This document shows positions 48,238 to 51,351 of a stretch of DNA of 64,000 bases, one piece after another. The notes beneath the pieces are model-generated. The model was not told the origin of the DNA. It saw only the letters and a list, made by a program, of their open reading frames with translations, and ran no database searches. The stretch is from Inhella proteolytica (GTDB taxonomy: Bacteria; Pseudomonadota; Gammaproteobacteria; Burkholderiales; Burkholderiaceae_C), in assembly GCF_016093275.1 (NCBI RefSeq), contig NZ_JAEDAK010000006.1, positions 62,001-126,000 of the forward strand, written 5' to 3'. The position numbers were made by a program, and so were the translations under genes. How positions within the stretch are numbered: the first letter of the stretch is position 1; each line of letters begins with the position of its first letter.

Positions 48238-48735
48238 ATGCGTGTCATGACCGCCGACTTCGACGCCCCCACCTTCCGTTCCGCCCTGGGCCTGTTCGCC
48301 ACCGGCGTGACGATCGTGACGGCGCGCAGCCCCGACGGCCGCCTGGTGGGCCTGACGGCCAACAGCTTCAATTCCGTCTCGCTCACCCCGCCCCTGGTGC
48401 TGTGGAGCCTGGCGCGCCGCGCCGGCTCGCTGCCGGTGTTCGCGGCCGGCAGCCACTACGCCATCCACATCCTGGCGGCCGAGCAGATCGAGCTGGCGCG
48501 CCGCTTTGCCACGCCGGAGATCGACCGCTTTGCCGGCCTGGGCCTGGAAGAGGGCGCCGGTGGCGTGCCCTTGATCCCAGGCTGCGCGGCGGTGTTCGAG
48601 TGCGCCAACCGCAGCCAGTACGAAGAGGGCGACCACATCATCTTTGTGGGCCAGGTGGAGCGCTGCGCGCACCGCCCGGGCGCGCAGCCGCTGATCTTCC
48701 ACGGTGGGCGTTACTTCACCGAGCTGCCGCTTTAG
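48238..48735 (+). CDS. flavin reductase / FMN-binding split-barrel protein
   Basis: The 165-residue protein (an ATG at 48247 is also possible) has ALGLFATGVTIVT and LTANSFNSVSLTPPLVL, the FMN-binding signature of the flavin reductase (HpaC/DIM6-NTAB-like) family, and ends with FHGGRYFTEL. It would supply reduced flavin to a monooxygenase or act as an oxidoreductase. The stop codon TAG lies at the left end of the MITE-like element. Confidence 0.88.
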   Translation: MRVMTADFDAPTFRSALGLFATGVTIVTARSPDGRLVGLTANSFNSVSLTPPLVLWSLARRAGSLPVFAAGSHYAIHILAAEQIELARRFATPEIDRFAGLGLEEGAGGVPLIPGCAAVFECANRSQYEEGDHIIFVGQVERCAHRPGAQPLIFHGGRYFTELPL

Positions 48736-49003
48736 GGCCTGTTCACACGACGGGAAGCCACGCGAAAGGGCCTGGCCGGCTGGCAGCCTAGGCGCGCGGC
48801 GAACGCCCAGGCTGGCCGCCTGGGCGAGCCGGGCAACGACGCATGGCGGCCGGCCAGGCCCTTTCCCTTCGGGTTGCCTCCAGAGAGGGCGCCCACTTCG
48901 TTACGAAGCCTTGCCGTGGGCCCGCCACGCCTGCGGCTTCGCGCCTCGTTGGCGCCCTTTCTGAAGGCAACGCGCTGGCTTCCCGTCGTGTGAACAGGCC
49001 CTA
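48733..49003. mobile_element. 271-bp MITE-like palindromic element with perfect 28-bp inverted ends
   Basis: The first 28 bases (48733-48760: TAGGGCCTGTTCACACGACG then GGAAGCCA) are the exact reverse complement of the last 28 (48976-49003). Inside are a perfect 17-bp inverted pair (48764-48780 with 48849-48865), a hairpin GCCCAGGC/GCCTGGGC (48805-48825), a 21-base pair matching at 19 positions (48873-48893 with 48951-48971) and a palindrome around CTTCGTTACGAAG (48896-48908). TA lies at both ends, fitting a TA target duplication as made by Tc1/mariner-IS630 transposases. No gene is seen within. Confidence 0.8.
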
Positions 49004-50434
49004 GTCACTCAGGCGCCCGACCGGGAAGGGCGCCGGGGCGTGCGCCAGACGCTGCCAGCGCCACAGCGCCCAGGGGAGCGCTGCCACTGCAACGGCGACC
49101 ACGGGCAGCGCGAAAGGCCAGCCCAGGGGCGACAGCAGCCAGGCGATCAGGCAGATGCCGAACACGCCCGCCTCCATCGCGCGGCTGGGTGCCTGCGGCA
49201 GGCGTGCGGGATCGATCAGGGCGCCGGCCAACACCAGGGGCAGGCAGCCCGCCAGTGCGATGCCCATGGCTGCCGCGATGCGCTCGCCGGTGCTCGGCAG
49301 GTAGGCCAGCATCGCCAGCAGCACCAAGCCCCAGCTCAGCAAGCCCTGCGTCAACCAGCGTGCGCTCAGGGCGCGGGTGAGCTGGCCGGGCCGGGAGGAG
49401 AGACCCGGCAGCAGCGCCAGCACGGCCTGCTCGCGCTGGCGTCGCCACAAGGCCTTGCTGCGGCTCACGTCGGCCGCGAAGGCCAGGCTGAGCGCACCCA
49501 CCCAGAGGCCGACCAAGGTGTCTCCGGTCGGACGGTCGGCCGCCTTCTCGGCGCTGGCGGCCAGCACCATCAGCAGGCCCACGAGCGCGCCGATGTGCAG
49601 AGCCACCCACAAGCGCACCGACCAATGCGCGCTGCGCGAAAGCATGTGATCGAGCTTGGCCACCGGACCAGCGTGCAGCACACGCTGGAAGTGCCACTCC
49701 CGCGGCCAGGTGAACCAGCGGGCCAGCCGGCCCAGCAGCTGGTCGGCCCAGCCCTCGCCCGGCGTCCAGCCGCGCTGCGCGCTGCGGCGGGCTTGCAGCC
49801 GCGCGCTGTGGTCGCGCCAATGCGCGGCATCGCCATTGCCCACCCATCGCCACAGCGCCCACAGGCACAGGGCTGCGGCCAGCAGAGCCGCGACCGGCGT
49901 GCCCGCCGCCGCGAAGCCTGCACCGACCACCGCCTGCAGGCCCGGCACTGCGCGCATCAGCAGGGCCAGCACGGCCAGGAGCAAGGGCGCGCCCAGCACC
50001 AGGGCCCAGAGCAGGCGGGGGCGGCGCAGCACCCAGGCCAGGGCGACCACGCCCGCACCAATTGCGAGGGGGCCCTCGGGGTCCAGGCCCCAGCGCCACG
50101 CCACCAGCAGGCTGGAGCCCAGCACGACCAGGGCCACGGCCAGCAAGCTGGCTCGGCGCAGGGCTCTCAAGTGGCCGGGCACCAGGCGGGCCCAGCGCGG
50201 GTCGTTCTGACCCCAGAGCTGAGCCAGGGGCCAGAGCACCAGCGCAAACCCGAGGCCGCCCGCCAGCCCGCTGATCATCAGTCGCCAGCCCACCCCTGCA
50301 ATCTGCTGCAGGAACACCAGCACCACCAGCGGACCGAGCAGGCTCACCACCAGGTTCGCCAGGGTCAGGCGGTGCTGCAGCAGCCAGCGCATGCGCTGCC
50401 ACACCATCGCGTGGGGGCTCGGCACGGCGCTCAT
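49001..50434 (-). CDS. ABC-2-like exporter permease
   Basis: From ATG 50434 the product is 477 residues with about ten hydrophobic helices distributed along its length and a soluble insertion rich in Arg and Trp (residues about 230-300). It is the membrane partner of the ATPase gene directly upstream, with which it overlaps by ATGA. This is an exporter or drug/peptide pump layout of the YtrA-type regulated systems; cargo is unknown. Its TAG stop codon is supplied by the right end of the MITE-like element. Confidence 0.75.
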   Translation of the reverse strand: MSAVPSPHAMVWQRMRWLLQHRLTLANLVVSLLGPLVVLVFLQQIAGVGWRLMISGLAGGLGFALVLWPLAQLWGQNDPRWARLVPGHLRALRRASLLAVALVVLGSSLLVAWRWGLDPEGPLAIGAGVVALAWVLRRPRLLWALVLGAPLLLAVLALLMRAVPGLQAVVGAGFAAAGTPVAALLAAALCLWALWRWVGNGDAAHWRDHSARLQARRSAQRGWTPGEGWADQLLGRLARWFTWPREWHFQRVLHAGPVAKLDHMLSRSAHWSVRLWVALHIGALVGLLMVLAASAEKAADRPTGDTLVGLWVGALSLAFAADVSRSKALWRRQREQAVLALLPGLSSRPGQLTRALSARWLTQGLLSWGLVLLAMLAYLPSTGERIAAAMGIALAGCLPLVLAGALIDPARLPQAPSRAMEAGVFGICLIAWLLSPLGWPFALPVVAVAVAALPWALWRWQRLAHAPAPFPVGRLSD

Positions 50435-51351
50435 GCCAGGCCCTCGAACAGATCCTCCAGCGTCACCGCCTGCACCAAGGTGTCGGCTCCCGCGACGGTG
50501 GGGCGGCGCACCAGCAGGCGCGGCCCGAAGCGCGCCAGCAGCTCGCCGCCATGCGCCTCGGCGCCCGGCCCCTGCACCCAGCGGCATTGCTCCAGCAACT
50601 CGTCCAGCGGGCCCTGCAGGCGGATGCGGCCACCCTTCAGGAAGGCGACGTTGAAGGCCACGCGCTCCAGGTCGCTGAGGATGTGGGTGCTGAAGACCAC
50701 GGTGGTGCCACGGTCCAGCACCTGCTCCACCAGTTCGCGCAGGAAGTCGCGCCGGCCCAGCGGATCCAGGCTGGCCACGGGTTCGTCCAGCACCAGCAGG
50801 TCGGGCTCATGGGCCAGCGCGCGGATGATGGACAGGCGCTGCTGCTGACCGACGCTGAGCTGGCCGATGAGCTTGTCCTGCGGCAGCTCCCAGCGGCTCA
50901 GCAGGCCTTCCACCTTGGCCTCGTTCCAGCGCGGGTAGAAGCTGCGGAAGTAGGCCAGCAGCTGGCGCGGGCTCAGGTCCTCGAACAGATCGCTCTGCTG
51001 CGGCACATAGCCGATGCGCGCGCGCACGCTGTCGTCCAGGCGGTCGGCCGGCTGGCCGAACAACCAGGCCTGGCCGGCCTGCGGTTCGCGCAGGCCCAGC
51101 AGGGCTTCCAGCAGCGTGGTCTTGCCGGCGCCATTGCGGCCCAGCAGGCCGACCACCTGGCCGGGCTGCAGCTGCCAGTCCAGCCCGGCCAGCACCGGGC
51201 TGCTGTGGCGGCCATAGGCCAGGCGCAGGCCTTCGATCTGCACCGGCGGGGCGCTCTCGGGCAGGGGGGCGGCGTGCAGGGCCAGTCCAGCCTGTGCCGG
51301 GGCGCTGCGGCGCGGTGCCTTCCACCAGGGCAGGGCGTGCAGAAGATTCAT
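50431..51351 (-). CDS. ABC transporter ATP-binding protein
   Basis: The 306-residue ATPase has Walker A LLGRNGAGKTTL, the signature LSVGQQQRLSI, Walker B LLVLDEPVASLD and the switch His in FSTHIL. About 35 extra residues lie before the first strand and about 70 after the catalytic core. It pairs with the permease downstream and is coupled by ATGA to both the GntR regulator gene and the permease gene. Confidence 0.92.
   Translation of the reverse strand: MNLLHALPWWKAPRRSAPAQAGLALHAAPLPESAPPVQIEGLRLAYGRHSSPVLAGLDWQLQPGQVVGLLGRNGAGKTTLLEALLGLREPQAGQAWLFGQPADRLDDSVRARIGYVPQQSDLFEDLSPRQLLAYFRSFYPRWNEAKVEGLLSRWELPQDKLIGQLSVGQQQRLSIIRALAHEPDLLVLDEPVASLDPLGRRDFLRELVEQVLDRGTTVVFSTHILSDLERVAFNVAFLKGGRIRLQGPLDELLEQCRWVQGPGAEAHGGELLARFGPRLLVRRPTVAGADTLVQAVTLEDLFEGLA

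Follow-up and report, generated by a model that had tools for sequence, protein, structure and literature searches.

An IS5-type MITE between two stop codons of Inhella proteolytica and its conserved hairpin module

Among the IS5-type MITEs with a YTAR-like target, MITEPsy1 from Pseudomonas syringae is the nearest published example met in the literature searched (PMC3189936, accessible part of the article). It is entered there as 'IS5?' in a table, thus also as a probable IS5-type MITE, and is inserted after CTAG or YTAA, which is duplicated on insertion (PMC3189936, same part). The motif YTAR is given as the insertion motif of IS5 in the accessible part of PMC10359306.

An element with a comparable target is located in Inhella proteolytica, in the 64,000-nucleotide stretch analysed here (contig NZ_JAEDAK010000006.1, positions 62,001 to 126,000; below: the window). 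Its identity as an IS5-type MITE placed in two stop codons is solidly established. The wider reading is considered likely from comparative sequence analysis: the element would be non-autonomous and mobilised in trans, would have YTAR, with the stop codons it contains, as target and would carry paired hairpin modules with a probable RNA function. This reading draws on dispersed copies, a partner IS, the target, the absence of the element in relatives, its position at stop codons, the module family and covariation.

Architecture and distribution of the hairpin module

The element is bordered by 26-bp perfect repeats, measures 267 bp and lacks any gene of transposase size (Table 1). In the mechanical list, open reading frames of, for example, 86 aa (+ strand) and 60 aa (- strand) run across it. 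As the earlier note had stated, the 28 terminal nucleotides (TA included) are exact reverse complements (48733-48760 and 48976-49003). A second inverted pair is found at 48764-48785 and 48844-48865, with a match of 91%. The nearly complete folding predicted in the same note is confirmed on both strands. As DNA, the + strand folds at -120.4 kcal/mol, compared to a shuffled mean of -69.0 (z -13.5), and as RNA z-scores of -14.1 (+ strand) and -14.8 (- strand) are obtained; in each of these three folds, none of 200 shuffles matched the real fold.

Table 1. Coordinates of the element, its parts and the adjoining genes in the window.
Feature	Positions	Strand	Basis
MITE proper	48735..49001	+	267 bp; IS5-type ends GGGCCTGTT...AACAGGCCC; relatives in home genome
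Left TA, target duplication	48733..48734		TA on both sides in 58/70 copies; element missing in five genus members
Right TA, target duplication	49002..49003		Same basis as left TA
Left terminal inverted repeat, 26 bp	48735..48760	+	Outer bases GGGCCTGTT.ACAC common to the IS ends in L120-L122
Right terminal inverted repeat, 26 bp	48976..49001	-	Exact reverse complement of the left end
Hairpin module 1	48764..48865	+ (sense on + strand)	Covariance model R1: 70.7 bits, E 8.9e-18
Linker CCTTCGG between modules 1 and 2	48866..48872		Sequence
Hairpin module 2, inverted copy	48873..48971	- (sense on - strand)	R1: 67.5 bits on - strand
Flavin reductase-like gene	48238..48735	+	PF01613, E 7.4e-41; stop TAG = TA + first G of the element
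Convergent gene, start uncertain	49001..50587	-	No Pfam match; stop TAG = TA + first G of the other end

Each of the two inner hairpins is a copy of the same module of approximately 100 nt, one being inverted relative to the other. In a family alignment of 55 copies (255-275 bp, 18 genomes, 15 genera, all distinct; pairwise identity 47-99%, median 65%), hairpin 1 scores -3.7 on average against the reverse complement of hairpin 2, compared to -12.5 for the forward or shuffled sequence. Both modules contain an internal loop with C-n-AGGCGC as the 5' and GCAACG as the 3' side, and the linker of many relatives, CCC-TTCGG-G, is similar to that of the window. The covariance model R1 was built from 41 module copies (alignment A2, i.e. 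40 of the 48 sequences of the module list and one from L220). This alignment includes the window copy; on the wrong (+) strand, module 2 reaches only 21.3 bits vs 67.5 on the - strand.

For the 55 copies, RNAalifold predicts 97 pairs, 77 of which are changed on both sides. The paired cells amount to 94.9% (75.4% when shuffled, 37-44% with slid partners), and the covariation to 0.492 (0.141 shuffled, 0.06-0.09 slid). The internal-loop motifs of modules 1 and 2 are complementary as well, in 89.7% of cells vs 25-42% slid. This complementarity is more simply explained by module 2 being a copy of module 1 in inverted orientation, and kissing contacts between the two loops were rejected, with only pair 57-227 changing on both sides. 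Outside the predicted pairs, the strongest coupling in alignment A1 connects columns 57 and 107, inside the conserved internal loop (T57 with A107 in 32 copies, A57 with C107 in 19).

The module model matches 38 of 60 relatives (E <= 0.001), 30 of 143 genomes of the class (E <= 1e-6; 29 besides the home genome, each from another family) and 40 of 200 genomes of the phylum (E <= 1e-6), 22 of these 40 belonging to other classes. The home genome is counted in all three figures, and copy numbers per genome are lower bounds, since at most 68, 28 or 20 candidates were scored in each genome, depending on the scan. Four genomes (G027, G029, G023 and G034) reach the limit with at least 68 module matches each and may be rich in module elements.

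The surroundings of the module vary. A readable terminal repeat was found in 35 of 40 module loci, and the ends form 16 clusters, two of which (L292, L293) rest on short repeats; eight elements have GGG-type ends. Left out were the five wide loci without readable ends and, among the 64 model matches, two that belong to a second element in L305 and in L313, and the 17 loci L282-L298 were read by eye at the ends only. The elements with two modules mostly have a narrow length (16 of 20 at 258-274 bp), and 6 of 14 with one recognised module measure 161-169 bp; as this split uses model matches at E 1e-6, some of the latter may hide a weaker second module. Over the 64 wide-set modules 92.3% of cells pair (53.3% shuffled, 35-44% slid; alignment fitted to the model), and AGGCGC and GCAAC are both present in 49 of them. 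When another element of this kind (L335) was used as BLAST query, approximately 70% of its length, namely the core but not the ends, was matched on plasmids of Halomonas, Pseudomonas aeruginosa and, in two cases, Azotobacter. No annotated feature lies under the plasmid matches, and the Halomonas record has almost no annotation.

The interior thus belongs to a module family that is common to elements with other ends and is not IS debris. Its derivation from the parent IS by deletion, as is usual, if not universal, for MITEs, was not found. There is good support for the view that the hairpin module of the element is conserved and independent of the ends. In the window region and 24 further loci, Rfam 15 yielded nothing on the element above the gathering score (sub-threshold matches only), and no description of such a module was found in Rfam 15 or in a literature search that ran mostly without subscription papers.

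Strand asymmetry and the form under selection

For the complete element, the numbers of G-U and A-C mismatches are similar (68 vs 84), and the elements show no orientation bias relative to the host gene (16:20). On these two grounds, the idea that one strand of the entire element is selected as RNA was rejected. An asymmetry only appears once the modules are each taken in their sense direction. For events on the + strand, module 1 has a G-U:A-C ratio of 29:23 and module 2 one of 13:30 (Fisher p 0.014). In module sense, and with no G-U preference in the alignment of the arms, the ratio becomes 68:25 for the wide set (p 9e-6) and 21:8 for 24 family representatives (p 0.024); for the wide set, 110:26 is obtained when the model-fitted alignment is used. 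The stems of the terminal inverted repeats yield 7:7, and all family copies taken unclustered in the module frame yield 31:26 and 5:3, which is not significant. From the counts made without G-U preference, 9 of the 64 modules of the wide set and 6 of the 48 of the family were excluded, as their arms could not be read.

The G-U excess on the sense strand suggests selection on a single strand, probably RNA. More generally, the asymmetry points to a single-stranded sense strand as the selected form, with RNA as the simplest candidate and single-stranded DNA also compatible. A search of 48600-49150 for an intrinsic terminator, with a GC stem and a T run behind it, gave none; as neither a terminator-like nor a promoter-like site is present, a terminator or promoter was rejected as the identity of the element. 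A further candidate identity, an integron attC site, was set aside.

The strongest competing explanation, possible though clearly the less favoured one, is that the module serves as single-stranded DNA while the element transposes or is replicated, for instance by way of a bound host factor or of priming. It would then help the MITE to multiply under any IS5-type transposase, and the RNA would be irrelevant. The presence of terminal repeats at 35 of the 40 module loci, in 16 end clusters, agrees with this, as does the lack of orientation bias relative to genes. Moreover, G-T is better tolerated than A-C in DNA hairpins as well. Nothing speaks directly against the DNA reading; the stop-codon position follows from the target alone and does not distinguish between DNA and RNA.

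It is rather unlikely that the modules are neutral junk hairpins, in which template switching in the course of replication, and no functional selection, maintains the complementarity of the arms. Template switching has been proposed to create and maintain hairpins, and it can also explain asymmetric pair frequencies (PMC8794818, accessible part of the article). It may indeed supply some of the paired changes. Among copy pairs the closest differ by 44 single to 4 double changes, and more distant ones by 43:39 and then 39:53, which fits such a process, as do the balanced counts for the whole element and for the terminal stems. However, template switching leaves the conserved loops unexplained: both unpaired motifs, AGGCGC and GCAAC, are present in 49 of 64 wide modules. 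The narrow length of most two-module elements also argues against it. The RNA reading is retained as the preferred one.

The IS5-type partner, the target and the stop codons

In relatives of the home genome, a partner IS of approximately 800-824 bp has the same ends and the same target, and encodes an IS5-family transposase. Pairs of the same end, approximately 800-827 bp apart (TA included), are found in several genomes, one of which belongs to the same genus. Judged by eye, the MITE and IS ends agree over approximately the outer 16 bases. Four IS were read (L120-L123), each with two overlapping frames, and in three of them a run of six or seven A lies in between. In the IS of L121, frame 1 corresponds to DUF4096 and frame 2 to DDE_Tnp_1 (Pfam). 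Against NCBIfam NF033580 (IS5 family transposase), frame 2 reaches 132 bits vs a cut-off of 110, and frame 1 alone stays below it with 104.6 bits. Frame 2 matches 9 of 60 relatives (E <= 0.001), closely only G001, G009, G020 and G034 (84-94% identity in the main matches), and has no match in the home genome. A named IS copy is present on plasmid 1 of Polaromonas sp. JS666 (NC_007949), where it is annotated as IS5 family transposase. In G247, contigs C1, C4, C29 and C30 carry the same end at bases 68-84, as if a multi-copy IS of this type had broken the assembly.

From the TA at both ends the earlier note had deduced a Tc1/mariner-IS630 derivative. Such an origin, with the ends GGGCCTGTTMACAC, is now very improbable: the TA duplication would agree with it, but the partner transposase with the same ends is that of the IS5 family (NF033580, DUF4096 with DDE_Tnp_1). 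From its TA duplication, we take the element to belong to the IS427-like group.

The home genome (4.98 Mb, 44 contigs) gives 32 BLAST matches, including seven full-length copies with that of the window. It also holds longer, shorter and miniature forms at unrelated loci, namely three variants whose module 2 ends in an additional hairpin, a form that measures 172 bp with the TA, and miniature palindromes of 50 bp. In L008, L009 and L010 (home-genome contigs C1, C5 and C42), the module 2 tip is extended, between GGGG and CCCC, by a near-identical extra palindrome of approximately 98 bp; the hairpin tip therefore tolerates nested hairpins. Miniature palindromes, including examples from other loci, measure 46-50 bp without TA, consist of terminal repeats only and have TA on both sides (L023 / L237, i.e. 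C19:5315-5364; C6:7387-7436; L031:2188-2239; L210:468-521). A second MITE-like palindrome of approximately 164 bp was seen in L032 (4012-4178, MAG Ww159), with ends TAGGAGCGTGGGCGGC.. and ..GCCGCCCACACTCCTA. It seems to start in the TAG stop of a gene and adjoins a lone GGGCCTGTTCACACGACGGGAAGCC end.

The exact end TAGGGCCTGTTMACAC occurs in 85 of 299 genomes of the family and in 12 of 150 genomes of an order-wide draw, the home genome being counted in both. Among 70 MITE copies with both ends readable, TA stands on both sides in 58, and 51 of those 58 have the form YTA-element-TAR; an intact TA/TA is missing in 12. Of the IS copies, 12 of 13 readable ones are flanked by TA/TA, all 12 in YTAR. 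Seven loci without a readable end pair (L172-L174, L185, L186, L239, L241) were left out before the 70 MITE copies were counted, and so was locus L229 before the IS count of 14. Plasmid searches with the window element and with L330 gave no match. The mobile, non-autonomous nature claimed in the earlier note, including the TA as target duplication, thus holds: the search of the genome and its relatives which it had proposed gave dispersed, TA-flanked copies at unrelated sites and an IS with the same ends, and the element is absent in genus members.

In the window, the left TAG (48733-48735) is the stop of the + strand gene and the right CTA (49001-49003) that of the - strand reading frame. Neither this position nor the conserved pair of modules had been noticed in the earlier note. 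Both facing genes are unbroken, and the insertion left each of them a TAG stop. When the window flanks are joined, TTAG is obtained, i.e. two overlapping stops, and TTAG is inferred as the base-exact sequence before insertion. The left gene is found without the element in all five other genus members searched, with no copy or trace around it in approximately 3.2-3.5 kb. In two of them (L244 and L245) a homologue of the right gene lies beside it, also convergent (31-33% identity over 352-429 residues, E 1e-14 and 1e-20), and the two genes overlap by a few codons, rather than at TTAG. In L243, L246 and L247, no homologue of the right gene was found next to the left gene. The left gene of L243 ends in CTTTAG followed by TC, the same eight bases as in the joined window flanks, and an opposite reading frame ends there with GAC TAA at TTAG, which again gives two overlapping stops. 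L243 was nevertheless rejected as an exact orthologous empty site, as its right-hand reading frame is unrelated to the right gene of the window (no match).

The position at stop codons is common among the copies. In 50 of 70 MITE copies, the border coincides exactly with the end of a gene identified by its codon usage. The corresponding figures are 14 of 85 for flank YTAR, 2 of 24 for window YTAR and 3 of 13 for the IS copies. The window and 60 of these loci had served to tune the codon model behind the counts, and L232, an IS copy that lies at a contig edge, does not enter the IS figures. When stops are counted from open reading frames only, the figures are 53 of 70 for the MITEs vs 27 of 76 (flank YTAR), 14 of 24 (window YTAR) and 6 of 13 (IS). 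Here the difference between MITEs and window YTAR is not significant (p 0.12); antisense reading frames probably inflate the latter control. With shifted borders as control, the reading-frame count is 56 of 70 vs 73 of 1942 for the MITE copies and 19 of 35 vs 28 of 953 for elements found through the module, 8 of these 35 having GGG-type ends.

A fixed regulatory structure between the two genes that does not move, to which the position exactly between two stop codons could point, has next to no probability, since none of the five other genus members carries the element after the left gene, two of them having the same right gene, and since copies lie in unrelated loci. The earlier note had named a single copy at a conserved position as the sign of such a structure; the seven full-length home copies and the five genus members without the element are the opposite of this.

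Proposed mechanism and comparison with known systems

In the preferred reading, the 267-bp element would be moved in trans by the transposase of the IS5-family element of approximately 800-824 bp with the same ends. The transposase would insert into YTAR and duplicate the TA. As YTAR contains a stop codon on each strand and the first base of the element is G, insertion into TAA or TAG yields TAG and leaves the protein intact. At the window locus, insertion into the overlapping stops TTAG of two convergent genes would have left both genes ending in TAG. Insertions away from stop codons would be removed by selection. Since the modules are inverted, either direction of transcription would expose one sense module behind the stop codon. 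There the module, working as a folded single strand, would most likely form an RNA hairpin in the 3' untranslated region and make the insertion harmless or useful, possibly by protecting or defining mRNA ends. This proposed function may explain why the module is retained while the transposon ends differ.

Several results count against this explanation. An intact TA/TA is missing in 12 of 70 copies, the reading-frame count does not separate the MITEs from the window YTAR sites, and the whole-element (68:84) and unclustered (31:26 and 5:3) ratios show no G-U excess. Neither an orientation bias (16:20) nor a terminator-like or promoter-like site was found. The base-exact empty site was not met in a true orthologue, given the unrelated right-hand gene of L243 and the different gene overlap in L244 and L245, and template switching offers another explanation for asymmetric pair frequencies (PMC8794818).

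A more far-reaching proposal has an even chance of being correct. The module, composed of a lower stem, the loop AGGCGC/GCAACG and an apical stem, would represent a structured RNA or single-stranded DNA not described so far, which MITEs carry across the Pseudomonadota, with the module itself, not the ends, as the heritable unit. Fold and loop would persist through changes of the transposon ends, and the frequent arrangement as an inverted pair would provide each strand with one sense copy. The module would dock behind stop codons because the YTAR targets of IS5-type elements are stop codons.

Correia elements, ERIC and other fold-back MITEs are short, intergenic and palindromic with TA at the ends, like the window element, a likeness by description. 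No single module under many different ends is known to us in these families. Correia elements are mentioned in the accessible part of PMC4853749. REP and REPIN sequences resemble the element in being multi-copy hairpins outside genes. They are moved by RAYT-type enzymes. Their units differ in measuring 20-40 bp (PMC3733652, accessible part).

MITEPsy1, compared by description only, differs from the window element with its 100 nt and its 18-nt repeats, and no hairpin module is named in the accessible part of its description (PMC3189936). The IS5-family IS with TA duplication of the Polaromonas sp. JS666 type has nearly the same terminal repeat and CTA...TAG flanks. It differs in carrying a transposase, in related copies as two frames with an A run, and no hairpin modules were seen in these copies.

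The target that is itself a stop codon, together with an element end starting with G, offers a simple route to harmless insertion, and the covariance model can be used for annotating many unannotated repeats. MITEs are usually read as the empty shells of IS. Here it is the shell that varies, whereas the filling is conserved beyond one class, which suggests that the filling has a job.
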